Assembly: GCA_011390265.1 (NCBI GenBank)
Contig: JAABSU010000008.1
Span: forward strand, 1 to 33,361
DNA length: 33,361 bases
Source of the DNA: Spirulina sp.
GTDB lineage: Bacteria; Cyanobacteriota; Cyanobacteriia; Cyanobacteriales; Spirulinaceae
Reading direction: 5' to 3'
Position 1 is the stretch's first letter; every line of letters starts with the position of its first letter. The position numbers were made by a program, and so were the translations under genes. A model generated the notes under the pieces. The model made no database searches. It worked only from the letters and a program-made list of their open reading frames with translations, and was not told the origin of the DNA. Below, one piece after another: positions 7,467-23,415 of this stretch.

Positions 7467-7585
7467 CCAGACCTAGGTTTTGCGACTGAGATGCTGAAAG
7501 TTGATGACTTGGTGGAGGCGATCGAGAAGTTTGGGCCGTTGAGGCACTTCCATAACAGGACTTGCGCTAAAAGACGACCAAAACG

Positions 7586-7615
7586 GGTGTTATCCCGCCT
7601 GTGCGGAATAACGCC
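7586..7615. repeat. Hairpin of 13 positions with one mismatch
   Basis: ggtgttatcccgc and gcggaataacgcc pair over 12 of 13 positions (one of them a G-T pair) around a CTGT loop. It lies just before the first attC-like structure. It could be a transcription terminator for read-through from the protease gene, or part of a decayed attC; there is no T-run. The preceding aacaggacttgcgct also resembles a short sequence dispersed in cyanobacterial genomes. Confidence 0.4.
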
Positions 7616-7702
7616 TATAATATCGGAGTTAGACCGCCAGTGCTTGGCAACACCCTCCAGGGGTGAGTTATCTTGCAGTTGCGGTCTAATAAATAGTTAT
7701 GT
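7615..7702 (+). other. Candidate attC-like site 1 with R' core GTTATGT
   Basis: An inverted repeat TTAGACCGC / GCGGTCTAA (7629-7637 and 7681-7689) with an inner CACCC/GGGTG pairing is followed, after a six-base spacer, by GTTATGT. This is close to the GTTRRRY recombination core. On the left a seven-base spacer is preceded by CTATAAT, a poor match to the RYYYAAC R'' box. The near-symmetrical spacers and total length of 88 bp suit an attC, but R'' is degenerate. The first ATG of the RM pair begins four bases after the core, as is usual for cassettes. Confidence 0.4.
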
Positions 7703-7705
7703 GTC

Positions 7706-8557
7706 ATGAAAATGAGATTTGCAATGAATAAACAGCAAAGAATTTCAAAAGCCATAAAAGATGTCGTATCTGAAATGATGGATCGGGTAATGGATCGCGT
7801 TCTAATTACTGACCCTTTTATTGAGGAAAGTCACCATTCAAGCAAACCTCTCTACGCAGCATTAGTGCCTGACGAGATTTTTAAAGGTTCACATTTTGAG
7901 AGAAGATTTGTAACTCCATTTGGTGGTGTATGGGAAAAACTTGCTCAAGTTGTTGCTTTAGAAGCTCATGGTAATTGTCAAATGGGACATACGATAAACG
8001 GAACAATTGGAAAAGAAAGCTTAAGAAGAATTCAAGAGATTCTAAATAAATTAGAACATAGTAAAGGCAAAGAAAAAATTAAACCAGATTGGGATAAAGA
8101 ATTGAAATATATTAAGGCGGGAAGTGGGCAACTTATGCCTGCGACTGTTGTGTGTGATATTTTTATACAAAACGAAGAAGATGGAACACGGTATTCGTTT
8201 GAACTAAAAGCTCCATTACCAAATAGCGATCAAACAAAAGTAAGCAAAGAAAAATTATTTAAGCTTTTGGCAATGGAGCCAAAAGCTGTTGATTATGCCT
8301 ACTACGCTTTGCCATATAATCCTTATGGGAGGAAAGAAGATTATAAATGGACTTTCCCTATGCGATGGTTCAATATGCATGAAGATGAATCAGTACTGAT
8401 AGGCAATGAATTTTGGGAACTTATTGGAGGGGAAGGAACTTATAGTAACTTCATTAAAGAAATTAATGCATTGGGTAAGGATTACAAAGAAAGGATCTAT
8501 CGAGAGTTTTTGGGAATTGAACCTCCTAAAAATTTTGAAGAAGAAGTTTTAAAATAA
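7706..8557 (+). CDS. Type II restriction endonuclease, probably TdeIII-like
   Basis: 283 aa from the first ATG; ATGs at 7712 and 7724 are alternatives, the last giving the N-terminus MNKQQRISKAIKDVV. The protein is lysine-rich and soluble. The segment CDIFIQNEEDG followed by YSFELKAPLPNSDQTKVSKEKL has the D-x(n)-E-x-K pattern of PD-(D/E)XK nucleases. The overall pattern (LVPDEIFKGSHFERRFVT, FELKAPLPNSDQTK) resembles the TdeIII family, said to cut GGNCC; I am moderately sure of the family and cannot confirm the site. A C5 methylase gene follows 25 bp later. Coding sequence is markedly AT-rich compared with the flanking core genes. It starts right at the candidate cassette boundary. Confidence 0.72.
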   Translation: MKMRFAMNKQQRISKAIKDVVSEMMDRVMDRVLITDPFIEESHHSSKPLYAALVPDEIFKGSHFERRFVTPFGGVWEKLAQVVALEAHGNCQMGHTINGTIGKESLRRIQEILNKLEHSKGKEKIKPDWDKELKYIKAGSGQLMPATVVCDIFIQNEEDGTRYSFELKAPLPNSDQTKVSKEKLFKLLAMEPKAVDYAYYALPYNPYGRKEDYKWTFPMRWFNMHEDESVLIGNEFWELIGGEGTYSNFIKEINALGKDYKERIYREFLGIEPPKNFEEEVLK

Positions 8558-8582
8558 TTGACTTGAATAAGAGACATAAAAA

Positions 8583-10076
8583 ATGCAGAACATACGATTT
8601 ACTTTTATTGATCTTTTTGCTGGAATTGGTGGGTTTAAAATGGCATTAAGCAATAATGGCGGTCATTGCATAGGTTTTAGTGAAATAAATAAAGACGCAA
8701 TAAATATATATTGCGAGAACTTTAAAATTGAACCTAGTTGTAACTTAGGAGATATCACCAAAATCAGAGAATTACCACCTCACGACTTGTTAACCGCTGG
8801 AGTTCCTTGTCAAAGCTGGTCAATTGCAGGTAAAAATCTAGGTTTTGACGATGATAGAGGGCAGTTGTGGAACGATACAATTTATTTGCTTCAACAATCT
8901 AAACCAAAGGCATTTATTTTTGAAAATGTAAAAGGATTGGTTGACCCTCGGAACAAAAAAGCTTTGTCATATATCCTAGAAAGAATTGAAAAAGCAGGCT
9001 ATCACGCTAACTATTTTTTAATTAACTCATTTGATTATGGTGTACCACAAAATAGGGTTCGCGTATACATAATTGGGTTTAAGAAAAAGAATTACTTCCA
9101 AAATTTCGCGTTACCAAAATTTAGTGAAAACAAACTAAAACTTAGTGATATATTAGGTATTGAAATACAGCAAAAAATAGATAAAAAGATTGTTCAGAGA
9201 GACTTATTTGGCAATATTGTTGAACCTAAAAGCATGAGCCTTTCAAGTACAAATGGATTCAACGATTATTTTTTGTTTAACGACCTTAGAAATGGTCATA
9301 CAACAATACACTCGTGGGACATTATTGACACTACTAAACGGCAAAAAGATATTTGCTTATTATTACTTAGAAACAGACGAAAAAATTACTATGGTAAATT
9401 AGACGGAAATCCATTGTCATTAGAACATTTTCAATGCCTAGACTCGTCGATTAAACAAGAAGAAATTGATAAACTGGTTCAATTAGAAATCTTAAAATCT
9501 GAAGAGTATCGTTTTGCGATCAAACAGTATAATAGTAACGACTTGACAAAGGATGAAGAACTCTTACTTTCATTCGCAAACAATGTAGAAATTCTTATTG
9601 ATAGTTTAAATATTCAAAGAGCTTTTAAGTTAAAAAGGATGTCAATTGGAAAGGCAATTAAGTCTCTGAAACAGAAAGATATTATTGAGTGTGTCGAAAT
9701 TCGATATGATTTTAAAAACACTAAAATTAGTACGGGACTATTTGGTGTAAATCGTATCTTCTTGCCAAGTTCTGATATTTTCCCAACCCTAGTTGCAAGC
9801 GACACAAATGACTTCATAACTTTAAAGACAATCGAAGCATTAAATCATAATGATTTTAAAAACAAATTCATAAAGGAAGTTTATGAATTAAGAGAATTTA
9901 GAAAAATTACTAAACGTGAGGCTTGTTTAATACAGGGATTTCCTGAAGATTTTAAACTACCAAAGTCAAGATCGAGATGGATGAAACTCATTGGAAATAG
10001 TGTTTCAGTTCCCGTAATTGATAAACTGTGCAAAGCGATTATTGATACTGGTGTCTTTGAAAATGAAGAGGAATAG
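8583..10076 (+). CDS. DNA (cytosine-5-)-methyltransferase
   Basis: 497 aa. C5-methylase motifs occur in order: motif I FIDLFAGIGGFKMAL near residue 8, motif IV with the catalytic Cys in AGVPCQSWSIAGK near 78, motif VI FENVKGLVDPRN near 116, motif VIII QNRVRVYIIGF near 157, and motifs IX-X ending in KLIGNSVSVPVIDKL near the C-terminus. Between VIII and IX lies a long variable region of about 230 residues, which would hold the target-recognition domain. It modifies cytosine and protects host DNA from the endonuclease encoded 25 bp upstream. Codon use is AT-rich like its partner. The gene ends 39 bp before the attC-like site. Confidence 0.93.
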   Translation: MQNIRFTFIDLFAGIGGFKMALSNNGGHCIGFSEINKDAINIYCENFKIEPSCNLGDITKIRELPPHDLLTAGVPCQSWSIAGKNLGFDDDRGQLWNDTIYLLQQSKPKAFIFENVKGLVDPRNKKALSYILERIEKAGYHANYFLINSFDYGVPQNRVRVYIIGFKKKNYFQNFALPKFSENKLKLSDILGIEIQQKIDKKIVQRDLFGNIVEPKSMSLSSTNGFNDYFLFNDLRNGHTTIHSWDIIDTTKRQKDICLLLLRNRRKNYYGKLDGNPLSLEHFQCLDSSIKQEEIDKLVQLEILKSEEYRFAIKQYNSNDLTKDEELLLSFANNVEILIDSLNIQRAFKLKRMSIGKAIKSLKQKDIIECVEIRYDFKNTKISTGLFGVNRIFLPSSDIFPTLVASDTNDFITLKTIEALNHNDFKNKFIKEVYELREFRKITKREACLIQGFPEDFKLPKSRSRWMKLIGNSVSVPVIDKLCKAIIDTGVFENEEE

Positions 10077-10115
10077 GAAGATCAAATTGAATTAGAAATT
10101 ATTAATAAAGACAAC

Positions 10116-10185
10116 ACATAACAAATCGCTGCACCTGACATTTCTCCGCTGTGCTACAAAATGTAGGTGAACTCATCCGTTAGAC
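10116..10185 (+). other. attC-like recombination site 2 (end of the RM cassette)
   Basis: The 70 bp reads R'' ACATAAC, spacer AAATCGCTG, arm CACCTGACATTT, loop, arm AAATGTAGGTG, spacer AACTCATCC, R' GTTAGAC. The two arms pair perfectly except for one unpaired G in the left arm, the position where attC sites carry extrahelical bases. R' matches GTTRRRY exactly. R'' is the exact reverse complement of GTTATGT at 7696; extended by two bases, ACACATAAC mirrors GTTATGTGT. In a linear cassette, R'' is expected to be complementary to the cassette's own first bases, so the predicted cassette is 7697-10179 (2483 bp) and contains only the RM pair. Confidence 0.65.
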
Positions 10186-10220
10186 CAACACCTCAATTTT
10201 TCAATACATTTAACCTCACT

Positions 10221-10500
10221 TTCCGCAGGTTGATATTTTATTTTTACTATGCATTGCTAAATACAATCGCTGTAAGCCTTGTGGGAAGAGACTTCTAGGA
10301 TTTGCCAATTTTGAGAACTCAACGAGTAGCTTAATGTTCCGTAATAATTTGATCGGCAACATCCAAAGTCCAAACCTGCCATTTTTCAAGGCTTTCGGGA
10401 AACAAAAAATAAATGCACACTTTAATTTGTTTGTCAACCTGCGGAATGTCGGTAAACCACTACACCTTTTTTATTTTTTGTCAACCTGCGGAATGTCGGT
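10221..10500. repeat. TTCCGCAGGTTGA repeats, one inverted and two direct; possible IS/MITE relic
   Basis: TTCCGCAGGTTGA occurs at 10221-10233 and its reverse complement at 10434-10446 and 10481-10493. The last two lie in a 23-bp perfect direct repeat ttgtcaacctgcggaatgtc plus ggt (10431-10453 and 10478-10500). Opposite copies with AT-rich inner flanks look like the ends of a small insertion element; the second right-hand copy abuts the truncated antitoxin gene. No transposase is recognisable between them. The 73-aa ORF at 10216-10437 (minus) and a fragment reading FPESLEKWQVWTLDVADQII in another minus frame were not identified. Confidence 0.45.
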
Positions 10501-10633
10501 TTAACCAGATCGACTGGCTCCGGGAGATTGCCATTGTCCTATTTCAGCAAGAGCGGATTTCCCTGAGCCGTGCCAGTAAGATTGCCGCAATGGAAGTCAT
10601 GAATTTTCAAAAACTACTGGCAGATTGTGGCAT
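10500..10633 (+). pseudogene. Truncated duplicate of the UPF0175 antitoxin gene
   Basis: This 134-bp segment is identical to 11634-11767 except for three substitutions. It covers codons 17-60 of the intact UPF0175 gene, from FNQIDWLREIA to the LLAD-x-G segment, and then diverges. The first codons are replaced by the TCAACCTGCGGAA repeat and the 3' part by unrelated sequence. The 87-aa ORF in the track (10413-10676) is a chance fusion across this fragment. No toxin gene follows it in the same orientation. The duplicate implies a recent segmental duplication within the island. Confidence 0.8.
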
Positions 10634-10672
10634 GCTTAAACAGCATAGGACTAAGAAATCAGCCGAGATCGC

Positions 10673-11005
10673 TTAGTGAAGCTCCAAGCAGTGAAAAGCA
10701 GTATTCCCTAAAAGTTCTTCAATTACTTCTTGAGCAGAGCGAATCAGAATTTCAATCTGTTTAGTTGGTGCATTTCCACATCTTAACCATATCACTTTCG
10801 GTGGAGAACCGTATAGTCGGCTTCTTTCCGCAAAATCTGCATCTTGAGTGACAATGCAGAAATCGTTTAACTGAGCGAACTCCCAAATCTCTGTATCTGT
10901 CTTCTCCGTCAACCCGTGAAATTGTACATGACTAGCATTCGGGAAGATATCAGCCAATCGAGTAACAAGTTTTCGACTCAGGTTTTGATCAAAAAGTAGT
11001 TTCAA
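10673..11005 (-). CDS. DUF5615 PIN-like toxin of a type II TA pair
   Basis: 110 aa. The protein begins MKLLFDQNLSRKLVTRL, with the PIN-type first Asp, followed by VTQDADFAERSRLYGSPPKVIWLRCGN, typical of DUF5615 (Mut7-C-like PIN fold). These are putative ribonuclease toxins. The start overlaps the stop of the upstream DUF433 gene by four bases (ATGA), indicating translational coupling. The DUF433/DUF5615 pairing is a common cyanobacterial toxin-antitoxin arrangement. The length is normal for the family, so it is probably intact. It is oriented against the flanking TA genes of the island. Confidence 0.85.
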   Translation of the reverse strand: MKLLFDQNLSRKLVTRLADIFPNASHVQFHGLTEKTDTEIWEFAQLNDFCIVTQDADFAERSRLYGSPPKVIWLRCGNAPTKQIEILIRSAQEVIEELLGNTAFHCLELH

Positions 11006-11232
11006 GCAGCACTCACCGATGCAACTAAACGATGTTCACGATCCGCCGCAAACTCTAAGCAGGCTCTAATATCGGTTTCCGTCAGTTCTGGAAAATCGTC
11101 GATGATCTCAGCAGTAGACATACCAGCCGCTAACCAGCCAAAGATATCGTAAACCGTAATTCGCATCCGGCGGATACAGGGCTTGCCGCCACGCTTATCA
11201 GGCTCAATCGTAATGATGTCGCGATAGCTCAT
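11002..11232 (-). CDS. DUF433 antitoxin
   Basis: 76 aa. The sequence has the DUF433 pattern: an N-terminal ITIEPDKRGGKPCIRRMRITVYDIFGWLAAG, then a second helical part MSTAEIIDDFPELTETDIRACLEFAADRE. The family is a small helix-turn-helix-like antitoxin and likely autorepressor usually encoded just upstream of a DUF5615 PIN toxin, as here with a four-base overlap. The full usual length of about 75 residues is present. The promoter should lie between 11233 and 11280, which also contains a candidate attC R'' box. Confidence 0.85.
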   Translation of the reverse strand: MSYRDIITIEPDKRGGKPCIRRMRITVYDIFGWLAAGMSTAEIIDDFPELTETDIRACLEFAADREHRLVASVSAA

Positions 11233-11272
11233 AATACAGACAGATGGGTTATGTACACCTAAGTTTAGAGCA

Positions 11273-11359
11273 GGCTAACACTGCACTGCAATGGGCAGGC
11301 GTTAAATGATCGGGTGAGAGCCATAGGTTGCTTGCCGCCGCTCAACTTCATCGTTAGAT
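11273..11359 (+). other. Weak candidate attC-like site 3
   Basis: GGCTAAC (one mismatch to RYYYAAC) at 11273 is followed by ACTGCACTG, similar to the left arm of site 2, and 87 bp later by GTTAGAT, a perfect GTTRRRY core. Internal pairing is poor (only GGCAGGC against GCTTGCC), so the site may be decayed or a coincidence. Its right core coincides exactly with the start of the duplicated murJ 3' segment. Confidence 0.25.
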
Positions 11360-11526
11360 CGCCCCAAGGGTTTAGCCCCGGCGGAGGAATTTGGCTTGAA
11401 GGCGGGTTTGCAGCATCGTTAATTCTGGGAGTTTGAATTGCAGGGCTAACCCGGTGAAGATGCCCAAGGCGACGATGGAGCCGAGGGTGAGTTGTAGGAA
11501 TACGACCCATAATTGAGCGGGATCAA
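11353..11526 (-). pseudogene. Duplicated 3' end of murJ (174-bp direct repeat)
   Basis: 174 bp aligned without gaps to 13285-13458, which is the 3' end of murJ plus 19 bp of its downstream sequence. Several substitutions separate the copies, for example near the stop codon and at gttgtaggaata versus gttgcaccagta. The fragment holds the last 50 or so codons of murJ and has no start, so it is not functional. Both copies begin at the identical octamer GTTAGATC. The 81-aa ORF track entry at 11265-11510 is a frame shadow of this copy. Confidence 0.85.
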
Positions 11527-11585
11527 GCGTGCAACCCCAGCCGCCCAAGCCTTAAAATTACCAATAAGCACTTGAGGGCAACTCG

Positions 11586-11837
11586 ATGCAAATTATGCTG
11601 AACCTACCTGATAGCCTCAGCCAAGTAGAAACCTTTAACCAGATCGACTGGCTCCGGGAGATTGCCATTGCCCTATTTCAGCAAGAGCGGATTTCCCTGA
11701 GCCGTGCCAGTAAGATTGCCGCAATGGAAGTCATGAGTTTTCAAAAACTACTGGCAGATCGTGGCATTTGTGTTCACTACGATGTGGAAGACTTTGAGCA
11801 GGATGTTCAGCATCTACGAGATCGAGGTTGGCTGTGA
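11586..11837 (+). CDS. UPF0175 family antitoxin
   Basis: 83 aa, the usual size for UPF0175. The N-terminus MQIMLNLPDSL is a beta strand typical of the family; the middle QERISLSRASKIAAMEVMSFQKLLADRGI is the predicted helix-turn-helix, and the C-terminus YDVEDFEQDVQHLRDRGWL completes it. Members are antitoxins paired with DUF3368 PIN proteins. The stop overlaps the GTG start of the downstream toxin by four bases (GTGA). A truncated copy of this gene lies 1.1 kb upstream at 10500. Confidence 0.88.
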   Translation: MQIMLNLPDSLSQVETFNQIDWLREIAIALFQQERISLSRASKIAAMEVMSFQKLLADRGICVHYDVEDFEQDVQHLRDRGWL

Positions 11838-12364
11838 TCGTTGTCAGCGATACATCTGCCCTCTCCAATCTTGCAATCATCGATCATCTCTGGTTGCTAA
11901 AGTCAATTGACCGAACCGTTATTGTTCCGGACGTTGTTGCCAGGGAATTAGCAGCCGTAAGCAATCCCATCATTCCAGTCATTCTCCAAGCAGGCTGGAT
12001 TCAAACTCAATCCCTCAGCAACTTTGAACTTGCCCACCAACTTCAGCAAGAACGGGGATTAGATGCTGGAGAAGCGAATGCAATAGCCTTGGCATTTGAG
12101 CTACAAGCTGATGATCTCCTCATTGATGAACGCTTGGGGCGGCAAGAAGCCCTTCGGCTTGGACTGTCTATCATTGGTATTTTGGGCATTCTGCTCGTTG
12201 CCAAACAAAGGAGTCTCATCCCTCAAGTTCGATCTGTTATGGATACCTTGATCAAGCAAGCTGGTTTTCGTGTCACCCCTGAGCTATATCAGCATATCTT
12301 AAGATTTGGCTCAAGAATCTTAGGAGATGATAAACTGAGACAGTCTGAGGATGTCAAGGATTAG
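11834..12364 (+). CDS. DUF3368 PIN-domain toxin
   Basis: 176 aa from a GTG that overlaps the antitoxin stop (GTGA); the ORF track's TTG six bases earlier is the alternative. PIN acidic residues are visible: Asp in VVSDTSALSNLA, Glu in GLDAGEANAIALA and Asp in DDLLIDERLGRQEA. DUF3368 proteins are putative ribonuclease toxins paired with UPF0175 antitoxins, as here. The C-terminus runs directly into the antisense integrase-like fragment, whose 3' end it truncates. Length and motifs suggest it is intact. Confidence 0.87.
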   Translation: MIVVSDTSALSNLAIIDHLWLLKSIDRTVIVPDVVARELAAVSNPIIPVILQAGWIQTQSLSNFELAHQLQQERGLDAGEANAIALAFELQADDLLIDERLGRQEALRLGLSIIGILGILLVAKQRSLIPQVRSVMDTLIKQAGFRVTPELYQHILRFGSRILGDDKLRQSEDVKD

Positions 12365-12490
12365 GATTTGGCCATAGTCAACGTCCACATCCCTAACTCG
12401 CAGTCGTAGGCATTCAGTCAACCGCATCCCAGTCCCGTAGAGTAGGTGGATGACTAAGGCCTCCGGGTCATAGAAGACTCCGAAAAGCTT
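12365..12490 (-). pseudogene. intI: Integron-integrase-like tyrosine recombinase fragment
   Basis: The minus strand is open for 42 codons and reads KLFGVFYDPEALVIH followed by LLYGTGMRLTECLRLRVRDV and DVDYGQI. The block LLYGTGMRL-x-ECLRLRV-x-DVD is the strongly conserved region around the first catalytic Arg of integron integrases and their closest XerC-like relatives. There is a stop just upstream in frame (12491-12496 region) and the fragment ends at the DUF3368 stop, so the N-terminal part and the HxxR and Tyr motifs are gone. It is too short for the ORF track. The IntI-specific insert lies in a missing part, so IntI versus another tyrosine recombinase cannot be settled from this piece. 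Confidence 0.7.
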
Positions 12491-12531
12491 TTATAAAGAT
12501 TTAGTACTTTAGTTCAGAAGATTTGCCCATT

Positions 12532-12795
12532 ATGACGCAAGCAACTCTTGTTAAACTCATTACTCAGCTTGAAACACTGGAATTGGATGAGCTTCAAAAG
12601 CTAAGTCAGGCAATACAAGTTCGTCTTAACTCATTAGATGAACCCACTAGACTAGCCCAGCTTTACAGTTCTTTACTTCACTCAGGTCTAGTTTGCTATG
12701 TAAGGCAAGGCTCTCTGAAGCAACAACCTAGGTTATCTTTAGTTTCGGTACAAGGTAGTTCTATATCTGAAACAATTATTGAGGAGCGCGGCTAA
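12532..12795 (+). CDS. Putative VapB-like antitoxin
   Basis: 87 aa from the ATG; the ORF track's TTG start adds three residues. The N-terminus TLVKLITQLETLELDELQKLSQAIQVRL is a predicted amphipathic helical pair, like many cyanobacterial small antitoxins. The remainder is low in recognisable motifs. The stop TAA is immediately followed by the ATG of a VapC-type PIN toxin, so it occupies the antitoxin position. The assignment rests mainly on this context. Confidence 0.6.
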   Translation: MTQATLVKLITQLETLELDELQKLSQAIQVRLNSLDEPTRLAQLYSSLLHSGLVCYVRQGSLKQQPRLSLVSVQGSSISETIIEERG

Positions 12796-13260
12796 ATGGC
12801 TATCTATTATCTGGATAGCAGTGCGTTAGTAAAACGCTATGTGAGCGAAACTGGTTCTACTTGGGTTTGCAGTCTTTTTGATCCCAGCCTAGGTCATCAG
12901 TTTTTTATAGCTGCTATTGCAGGTGTAGAAATTATTTCTGCAATTACCCGTAGAGCAAAAGGCGGAAGTATTAGCATATCTGATTCTATAGCGATTTGTA
13001 ATCAGTTTAAACAAGATTTTCAGACCGAATATCAGGTTATTGAAATCTCAGAGAAAATCATTAAAACAGCAATAAGCATGGCTGAGTTATATGCTTTGCG
13101 AGGCTATGATGCCGTTCAACTTGCTTCAGGGCGTGAATTGAACATTCTATGCTTAACAAATAGTCTGCCTGTGGTCAATTTCGTTTCAGCCGATAACGAT
13201 CTAAACAAATGTGCATTGAGCGAAGGATTAGCGATCGAGAATCCCAATAATTACCCCTAA
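12796..13260 (+). CDS. VapC-type PIN-domain ribonuclease toxin
   Basis: 154 aa. The acidic residues of the PIN active site are visible: Asp in IYYLDSSALVKRYVSE, Glu in IAGVEIISAITRR, Asp in RGYDAVQLASGREL and the last acidic cluster in VSADNDLNKCA. The family cleaves tRNA or other RNA when released from its antitoxin. It starts directly after the antitoxin stop, without a spacer. The gene ends 24 bp before the GTTAGATC boundary downstream of murJ. Normal length suggests it is intact. Confidence 0.88.
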   Translation: MAIYYLDSSALVKRYVSETGSTWVCSLFDPSLGHQFFIAAIAGVEIISAITRRAKGGSISISDSIAICNQFKQDFQTEYQVIEISEKIIKTAISMAELYALRGYDAVQLASGRELNILCLTNSLPVVNFVSADNDLNKCALSEGLAIENPNNYP

Positions 13261-13303
13261 GCTCTACATCAGCATAACTTGACTGTTAGATCGCCCCAAG
13301 GGT

Positions 13304-14896
13304 TTAGCCGCGCCGGAGGAATTTAGCTTGGAGGCGGGTTTGCAGCATCGTTAATTCTGGGAGTTTGAATTGCAGGGCTAACCCGGTGAAGATGCCCAAG
13401 GCGACGAGGGAGCCGAGGGTGAGTTGCACCAGTACGACCCATAATTGATCGGGATCAAACCAGCGATCGCACAGCCAATTGACCCCCCAACTCCCCGCAG
13501 TAGCCGCCACTGTACAACCGATCAAGCCCAACAAAATCAGCCCCCATTCCCCCAAAGGCAAACCCCGCAGGCGGCGATGGAGAATGAAGAGAAAAATCAC
13601 CATCGAGGTGATATTCACCCCCACTGTGGCCATCACTAGGCCCGGGGTCTGAAAGGCATTGACGAGGAAATAATCTAAAACAACGTTCAGGAGAATATTA
13701 AAGACGCTGATCCGAAAGGGTGTTTCCCCATCCCCTAGAGCATAGAACACTCGCACCAATACATCCCGCCCTAAATAGAAAAACATCCCAAACCCGTAGG
13801 CCATTAACACCGGCACGACTAACCGGGAAGCCTCCGCATCAAAGGCAAACCGCTCATAGATAATCCGCACAATCGGCCCCCCTTGGGCGATGAAGATGGC
13901 CGTTAGGGGCAACATGGTGAGGGCGGTGAGGAGTAGACCCTGGCGGATGCGGACTTTGAGATCATCCCACTGCTCCGGAGCCGTCAAACGGGAAAACACC
14001 GGCAACATCGGCACGAGGATCATATTGGAAAGGATGCCCACGGGGGTGAGGACGATGAAATTGGCGTAACGCATCGCCGCCGCTGCCCCGGCAATGGTGG
14101 AGGCGAAATAGAGGTCGGTGTAGACGTTAATGTGGAGCATCCCCGATGAGAGGGTGGCGGGGGCCATCACCTTGAGGACATCGGCTACACCGGGAATCCG
14201 CCAATCAAACCGGAGGCGCAGGGTTCCGAGTTGCGATCGCCACTGGGCCACCAACTGCGCCAACCATTGCAACACCCCCCCCGCTAAAGTTCCCCCCGCC
14301 AACACCAAACCCCCCAACCGCGCATATTCCGGCGCATTCACCGCATCCCCCAACCACCACAGCAAAAACCCTACCCCCCCGATCAGCGTCACGCTGGAAA
14401 AGAGGGGGCTAACGCTGGGCAACCAATATTGATCGGCGGCGTTGAGTGTGCCAAAGCCAATGCCGATCAGACCCGCAAGGATCGCCAGGGGAGCCATGAT
14501 CCGCAGTTGTAGCACCGCCATGGCGCGGGTGGTGTCATCCAAGCCGGGGGCGAGGAGGTCGATGCAGGGGCCGGCAGCGAGGATCAATGCCACCGTAACC
14601 AGCAAGAGAATTCCCGTTACGAAGGTGGTCACCGTTTCGACAATGGGGGCCGCTTCCGATTTGTCCCGTTTTGCCAAGGCACTGACTAAAGCACTGTGGA
14701 AGGGGCCGTTAATCCCCCCCAAGAGAATGAGCAAAAAGCCGGGAATCACATAGGCGTAGGCGTAGGCATTGACCACCGGCCCCACCCCAAAGGCGGCGGC
14801 GATCGCCTGCTCCCGCACCAAACCAAACACTTTACTAATCAATGTGGCCATGGCCACAATACCGGCAATGCCCGCGAGGGAACGTTTAGGAGCCAT
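13304..14896 (-). CDS. murJ: Lipid II flippase MurJ
   Basis: 530 aa polytopic membrane protein, normal length for MurJ/MviN. The N-terminus SLAGIAGIVAMATLISKVFGLVREQAIAAAFG is the family signature (helix 1 with the conserved Arg), followed by PVVNAYAYAYVIPGFLLILLGGINGPFHSALV. About fourteen hydrophobic segments follow. MurJ flips lipid II across the cytoplasmic membrane for peptidoglycan synthesis. The neighbouring holB and peptidoglycan hydrolase lie on the same strand upstream. The 3' end borders the accessory island and has been copied there at 11353-11526. Confidence 0.95.
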   Translation of the reverse strand: MAPKRSLAGIAGIVAMATLISKVFGLVREQAIAAAFGVGPVVNAYAYAYVIPGFLLILLGGINGPFHSALVSALAKRDKSEAAPIVETVTTFVTGILLLVTVALILAAGPCIDLLAPGLDDTTRAMAVLQLRIMAPLAILAGLIGIGFGTLNAADQYWLPSVSPLFSSVTLIGGVGFLLWWLGDAVNAPEYARLGGLVLAGGTLAGGVLQWLAQLVAQWRSQLGTLRLRFDWRIPGVADVLKVMAPATLSSGMLHINVYTDLYFASTIAGAAAAMRYANFIVLTPVGILSNMILVPMLPVFSRLTAPEQWDDLKVRIRQGLLLTALTMLPLTAIFIAQGGPIVRIIYERFAFDAEASRLVVPVLMAYGFGMFFYLGRDVLVRVFYALGDGETPFRISVFNILLNVVLDYFLVNAFQTPGLVMATVGVNITSMVIFLFILHRRLRGLPLGEWGLILLGLIGCTVAATAGSWGVNWLCDRWFDPDQLWVVLVQLTLGSLVALGIFTGLALQFKLPELTMLQTRLQAKFLRRG

Positions 14897-23334: not shown

Positions 23335-23340
23335 GTTACT

Positions 23341-23415
23341 TGAGTGTGAGGAGTAAAGTTGAATAAGCACTTGGGGTCGAAACAAGGCAAGACTCCCAAG
23401 TGCTTTATCTTTTCT
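23341..23415 (+). ncRNA. Candidate small RNA or leader with terminator hairpin
   Basis: Downstream of the candidate promoter, AAGCACTTGGG and CCCAAGTGCTT (23365-23375 and 23395-23405) form an 11-bp stem with a 19-nt loop, followed by TATCTTTTCT. The stretch before it contains GTGTGAGGAGT, exactly the reverse complement of the ACUCCUCACAC motif of the cyanobacterial sRNA Yfr1. A TTG-initiated 44-codon ORF (MNKHLGSKQGK...) with a GAGGAG in front could also be read through it, ending in the CBS-CP12 3' end, so a leader peptide is an alternative. Confidence 0.3.

Follow-up and report, generated by a model that had tools for sequence, protein, structure and literature searches.

A 70-bp hairpin lies 39 bp past the stop codon of a DNA methyltransferase gene in a 33,361-nucleotide stretch of Spirulina sp. 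DNA (hereafter, the window). Is this hairpin an integron attC, as an initial annotation proposed from the letters alone, and if so, which cassette does it close, where was that cassette inserted, and what became of the integrase? The site and its parts are as follows.

10116–10185, plus strand: attC site closing a restriction-modification (RM) cassette, recognised by a covariance model and by an independent cyanobacterial attC model
10116–10122, plus strand: R'' box, ACATAAC
10132–10143, plus strand: left arm CACCT[G]ACATTT, with CACCT at 10132–10136, the extra G at 10137 and ACATTT at 10138–10143
10159–10169, plus strand: right arm AAATGTAGGTG, with AAATGT at 10159–10164 and AGGTG at 10165–10169
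10179–10185, plus strand: R' box, GTTAGAC

Nine bases separate AAC from CACCT and another nine separate GGTG from GTT. The annotated pairing of CACCT-G-ACATTT with one unpaired G holds in every letter, and the flanking boxes, nine-base spacers and 70-bp length match attC geometry as described there. ACATAAC fits the R'' consensus RYYYAAC at 6 of 7 positions and GTTAGAC fits the R' consensus GTTRRRY at all 7; for the motif halves, 0.00 chance occurrences are expected in the window. In the L''/L' stem the extrahelical bases lie on the R''-L'' arm, and the central spacer is unpaired. R'' and R' as they stand pair at no more than 4 of 7 positions, the TTAGAC of R' being that of the downstream neighbour; for this reason a box-plus-stem scanner with strict R''/R' pairing overlooked the site. 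Judging from the cassette borders, crossover would occur between G10179 and T10180.

Folding of the bottom strand gave −6.9 kcal/mol with two extrahelical positions on the R''-L'' arm, no better than shuffled sequence (z = −0.4). Folding energy this ordinary proves nothing, so relatives and context had to decide. Two covariance models were used. R1 was built from eight long attCs adjoining above-cut-off cyanobacterial IntI and includes no member of the window's family; in its training stem 93.8% of the cells were paired and compensatory changes occurred in 12 of the 16 pairs, with none of 500 shuffles and no slid control coming close, and it recovers a 12-site array (L034). R2 (A8) was built from family relatives with the window left out. 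R2 scored the site at 67.1 bits (E = 9e-17 in 609 kb), and R1 with filters off also found it (11.8 bits, E = 0.056 in 7 kb), with ends identical to those first annotated.

The unpaired G had been interpreted as the type of base that directs the integrase to the bottom strand. It is real on the top strand (G10137), but on the recombining bottom strand it is a C, as is the partner of the second unpaired base of the same arm, G10131; the window's extrahelical bases are C and C, where the commonest are G and T. Conserved extrahelical bases on the attC bottom strand are G and T, the T being placed 6–8 nt past the extrahelical base of L'' (PMC2727003). The family consensus pairs CACCTG[A]CATTTT with AAAATGCAGGTG, leaving an extrahelical A on the top and T on the bottom strand; this A lies seven bases after a first extrahelical position, which fits the 6–8 nt rule. 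In the window, A10138 can pair owing to a C-to-T change at T10164 of the right arm, and the unpaired base becomes G10137. The bulge looks like the canonical base shifted in position by one substitution, the direction of change being read from the consensus. Together with the single L-box mismatch (C10129), the shift suggests some decay of the site.

Close relatives of the site were detected by blastn in three Microcystis-genus genomes (82–83%; one, G097, is M. aeruginosa LEGE 91341) and on the Synechocystis 6803 plasmid pSYSM (80%). A pattern scan of 84,980 species genomes yielded nine loci with one exact-pattern site each, from Acidobacteriota, Desulfobacterales, Neomarinimicrobiota, a Methylococcales symbiont, Scalindua, SAR324, Aegiribacteria, an uncultured bacterium and Microcystis; all except Microcystis are metagenome-assembled genomes, in which single contigs are possibly mis-binned. 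The attC type is near-identical across about eight phyla, and most loci share a 63-bp core at ~90% identity, loop included; the Methylococcales copy has a shorter loop. A search for the exact pattern in viral contigs and a search of phage records yielded no family attC, and among plasmids the family was found on pSYSM only. R1 detected four family sites of other phyla at 24–29 bits (E = 9e-5 to 2e-3; L054, L055, L058 and L059), and more attC-like sites lie on the same strand as the family site in L053, L055, L056, L057 and L059. The cargo of the family attC, counted as genes inside the cassette or ending just before the attC, is as follows.

Window: TdeIII RM
L053: type II RM
L055: HsdR with HsdS
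L057: ResIII-type enzyme
Microcystis: EcoRI-type methylase
pSYSM: OLD-type ATPase-TOPRIM protein
L052: unknown protein
L059: DUF1858

Restriction or OLD-type cargo is present at six of these eight loci, a small sample. In the Desulfobacterales locus (L053), a restriction enzyme and a methylase are bracketed by two attCs and form a complete RM cassette. The attC lineage is common to about eight phyla and, in this small sample, mostly follows restriction or OLD-type genes.

A short hairpin with near-identical copies in distant phyla, here with a MITE-like repeat just downstream (10210–10504), could also be a dispersed MITE or REP-like repeat that resembles an attC by chance. We consider this highly improbable. 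The initial annotation had named dispersal as a possible refutation, and blastn found one copy in the own genome, hence no dispersed repeat there. Each matching locus has one exact-pattern site, several have other attC types nearby on the same strand, the complement of the cassette start recurs at the window, pSYSM and Microcystis loci, and an attI and an intI stub adjoin the cassette. In the attC reading, the hairpin closes the following cassette.

7697–10179, plus strand: gene cassette, 2,483 bp, 33% GC; left border between G7696 and TTATGT, complementing R'' ACATAAC at 7 of 7 positions and supported by composition
7706–8557, plus strand: TdeIII-type type II restriction endonuclease, 283 aa (PF09520, E = 1.6e-72; PADLOC REase_II)
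8583–10076, plus strand: C5-cytosine DNA methyltransferase, 497 aa (PF00145, E = 9.5e-82; PADLOC MTase_II)

Both reading frames are intact. The R'' of a cassette should complement the first bases of that cassette, and GTTATGT, the complement of ACATAAC, lies at 7696, ten bases ahead of the endonuclease start. The same agreement between cassette start and R'' was found in contigs C109, C91 and C227 of the own genome and at IntI-linked loci. GC content, 58% in the left gene and 53% in the spacer, falls to 33% once the cassette begins. By sequence, the site has the boxes, the stem, the covariance-model score and the complementary cassette start expected of an attC. A cassette start at GTTAGACC (7628) was rejected: that sequence belongs to the three attI direct repeats, and R'' is matched by the G/TTATGT junction at 7696.

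Lying just past the methylase stop codon, the hairpin could instead serve the methylase operon as a transcription terminator or RNA element, which we also regard as very improbable. Its stem lacks a following T-run, an Rfam search gave no attC-like or other match at the hairpin (the sole Rfam match in the window is a Cyano-1 RNA, RF01701, at 23340–23411), and the hairpin is conserved behind unrelated genes, keeping with cassette borders rather than RM genes. It is absent from RM homologues (84–87%) in two other cyanobacteria (G284 and G245), so the RM genes are also transferred or inherited in other ways. Remains of an integron platform lie to the left of the cassette, and a scrap of IntI lies to its right.

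7678–7702, plus strand: attI core, GTTGCGGTCTAATAAATAG followed by TTATGT, from position weight matrices (PWMs) of IntI-linked attI sites of other genomes
7589–7682, plus strand: three direct repeats, GTTATCCCGCCTGTGC, GTTAGACCGCCAGTGC and GTTATCTTGCAGTTGC, starting at 7589, 7628 and 7667 with an exact 39-bp period
7473–7553, minus strand: intI 5' stub, MEVPQRPKLLDRLHQVINFQHLSRKT and then a stop, ~26 codons, from DNA homology with own contig C109
12356–12496, minus strand: internal IntI fragment (profile residues 107–153), a pseudogene scrap (TIGR02249, E = 1.5e-11)

A motif recurs upstream of cyanobacterial intI genes, TATAATAAATAG followed by TTRRRY. An attI matrix from ten IntI-linked loci had its best window score at 7678–7702 (21.7 bits; next 14.2), and 60 Markov sequences reached at most 17.0 bits; a second matrix (nine loci) gave 24.4 bits there (next 15.5). 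The attI of a complete integron is thus present at 7678–7702, and the same core occurs in own contigs C109 and C91. By analogy with similar repeats upstream of other cyanobacterial attI sites, the three direct repeats are probably integrase-binding repeats.

The attI core contains a TATAAT-like box, and genome G087 shares ~20 nt upstream of the border, CGGTATAATAAGTAG followed by TTATGT, before an RM remnant, so the motif might be merely an RM-operon promoter inherited with the operon, leaving the left border wrong and the attC real. This too is very unlikely, given that the same core adjoins intI at nine or more other loci and precedes many unrelated cassettes, that sigma-70 scoring of 7560–7730 gave no match, and that G087 is explained by the same cassette sitting at an attI of that genome. 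The G087 homology at 7676–7696 was rejected as a refutation of the border, the same core being present beside cyanobacterial intI genes. At this G087 locus (L080 4161–5863) the same RM remnant stands at an attI, GGTATAATAAGTAG followed by TTATGT; it has a large internal endonuclease deletion, most of the methylase aligns, and ACATAAC follows, yet a complete attC is absent.

The intI stub alone was too short to give a tblastn match, and its identity rests on DNA homology with C109 (86% identity over 202 bp), where the intI remnant reads further, covering IntI residues 16–52 at 54% amino acid identity with a frameshift and stops. The scrap at 12356–12496, searched as a peptide, matched TIGR02249 (8.3e-13) better than Xer models and shares 52% identity over 46 aa with a complete IntI from a cyanobacterium. 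The window holds this internal fragment and the N-terminal stub rather than the functional intI beside attI of a complete integron, and no full-length IntI was found in the own assembly, which is 83% complete. The platform of ~200 bp recurs (86%) in C109 and C91 with a different cassette after each; cassettes at other attI sites of the own genome encode an ABC transporter, an acyltransferase, a GNAT-like protein and DUF6884. A single locus of contig C227 (L091 1108–3519) carries a tandem pair of attI-gene-attC units: the second attI (2347) is an exact match to its own attC, and the first (1108, TTATCT) has a downstream attC with R'' ACATAAC, not AGATAAC.

A second attC was found downstream.

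11272–11359, plus strand: second, partly decayed cyanobacterial-type attC (R1, 32.7 bits, E = 1.3e-5 over 444 kb)

Together with 10116–10185, also on the plus strand, it gives the window the makeup of a CALIN (at least two attCs on one strand, no intI). The 3' end of murJ (13304–14896, minus strand) is duplicated beside the second attC in a direct repeat of 196 bp (90%; 11344–11539 and 13276–13471), and the shared TTAGATCGCCCC begins at the G/TT crossover of that attC, as if by array recombination at a GTT site behind murJ. The MITE-like insertion right of the first attC ends in CTTTCCGCAGGTTGA and TCAACCTGCGGAATG and also occurs as incomplete copies in contigs C332, C308 and C76 of the own genome. 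A UPF0175 antitoxin gene is repeated over 134 bp (98%) at 10500–10633 and 11634–11767, and toxin-antitoxin genes (DUF5615, DUF3368 and PIN-like) cluster at 10413–13260 around the second attC.

Boxes, spacers, fold, relatives in arrays, cassette anatomy, attI, intI stub and the second attC all support the attC reading, and 10116–10185 is a genuine integron attC as far as sequence can show. A decayed integron with an RM cassette at its attI is strongly supported. Very probably, the hairpin is the attC of a cassette that was placed at the attI at 7678–7702 before the integrase decayed. An integron integrase would have folded the attC bottom strand and exchanged it between the G and TT of R' with double-stranded attI, and a circular 2.5-kb RM cassette would in this way have been put beside 7678–7702, as suggested by the anatomy and the junctions observed. 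The platform's integrase gene has since decayed to the ~26-codon stub seen here. With intI reduced to a stub, the cassette would now be fixed unless an integrase acts in trans; its current mobility is probably lost or dependent on such an integrase. That the cassette is still mobile, served from another replicon or from the missing 17% of the assembly, would agree with the platform copies bearing different cassettes at C109, C91 and C227, and we rate it as unlikely, as full-length IntI was not found in the assembly, the C109 intI is frameshifted and stopped, and the second attC is visibly decayed.

We profiled 292 cyanobacterial genomes for similar units, and integrase-less units of attI, cassette and attC recur among cyanobacteria. 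IntI above the curated cut-off was present in 15, R1 attC sites in 66, and the attI pattern (up to 3 mismatches) at 71 places in 33 genomes, with none in the reversed control; Microcystis G235 had the most attI-like sites in one genome (six). Of 40 attI loci fetched, mostly chosen away from IntI, only four had an IntI remnant within 1.5 kb upstream. Among 22 uncurated attI/attC pairs from other genomes at these loci, the R'' of the first downstream attC exactly complemented the attI neighbour in 11 (shuffle mean 2.05; 0 of 20,000 shuffles reached 11). Synechocystis sp. PCC 6803 provides a parallel at 82.1–84.3 kb of pSYSM, an integrase-less unit with attI, a single cassette and the same attC type; TTATAC after attI complements the R'' GTATAAC, like the start/R'' match in the window, and the cassette carries an OLD/GajA-like ATPase-TOPRIM gene instead of RM. 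A second attI-like core on pSYSM (L005 7115, ~79.1 kb; 29.7 bits) is followed by TTAGCC, with the downstream attC unrecognised. Tentatively, and at slightly less than even confidence, we suggest that integrase-less platforms, made up of an attI, usually a single large cassette and an attC, are numerous and dispersed in cyanobacteria, with several in a genome, and that one lineage of attC has become specialised in moving RM/OLD-type defence cassettes between phyla.

Cyanobacterial integrons and attCs are already known (PMC2426708, PMC8352920), as are intI pseudogenes and multiple integrons per genome (PMC2426708). The window site is like cyanobacterial-type attCs (59-base elements) in the order of its boxes, the crossover at GTT, the central spacer left unpaired, the placing of extrahelical bases on the R''-L'' arm, the variable terminal loop and the position after the cassette gene, but belongs to a short (~70 bp), sequence-conserved, cross-phylum lineage, other attCs of the own genome being cyanobacterial types of ~87 bp. 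Like the CALIN and single-attC loci of IntegronFinder it has attC without an adjacent functional integrase gene, whereas the window keeps a recognisable attI and intI stub. The pseudo-integrons with decayed intI (Nemergut 2008, PMC2426708) likewise have intI pseudogenes and several platforms per genome; here, by contrast, attI platforms are repeated with about one cassette each, and most surveyed attI sites lack a recognisable intI. Sites of attI are poorly described outside class 1 integrons, where attC-based tools do not report them (PMC9024848), and in the literature, covered in part, we found no account of a cyanobacterial attI motif, dispersed integrase-less platforms or a cross-phylum attC lineage.

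With the attI motif and the start/R'' rule, lone attC sites, dropped by tools under default settings, can be verified from sequence alone, and integron traces come to light in genomes that lack a full integrase, the laboratory strain Synechocystis 6803 among them. The 63-bp attC core, near-identical across phyla and placed behind restriction genes, points to a path along which defence systems may cross phyla.
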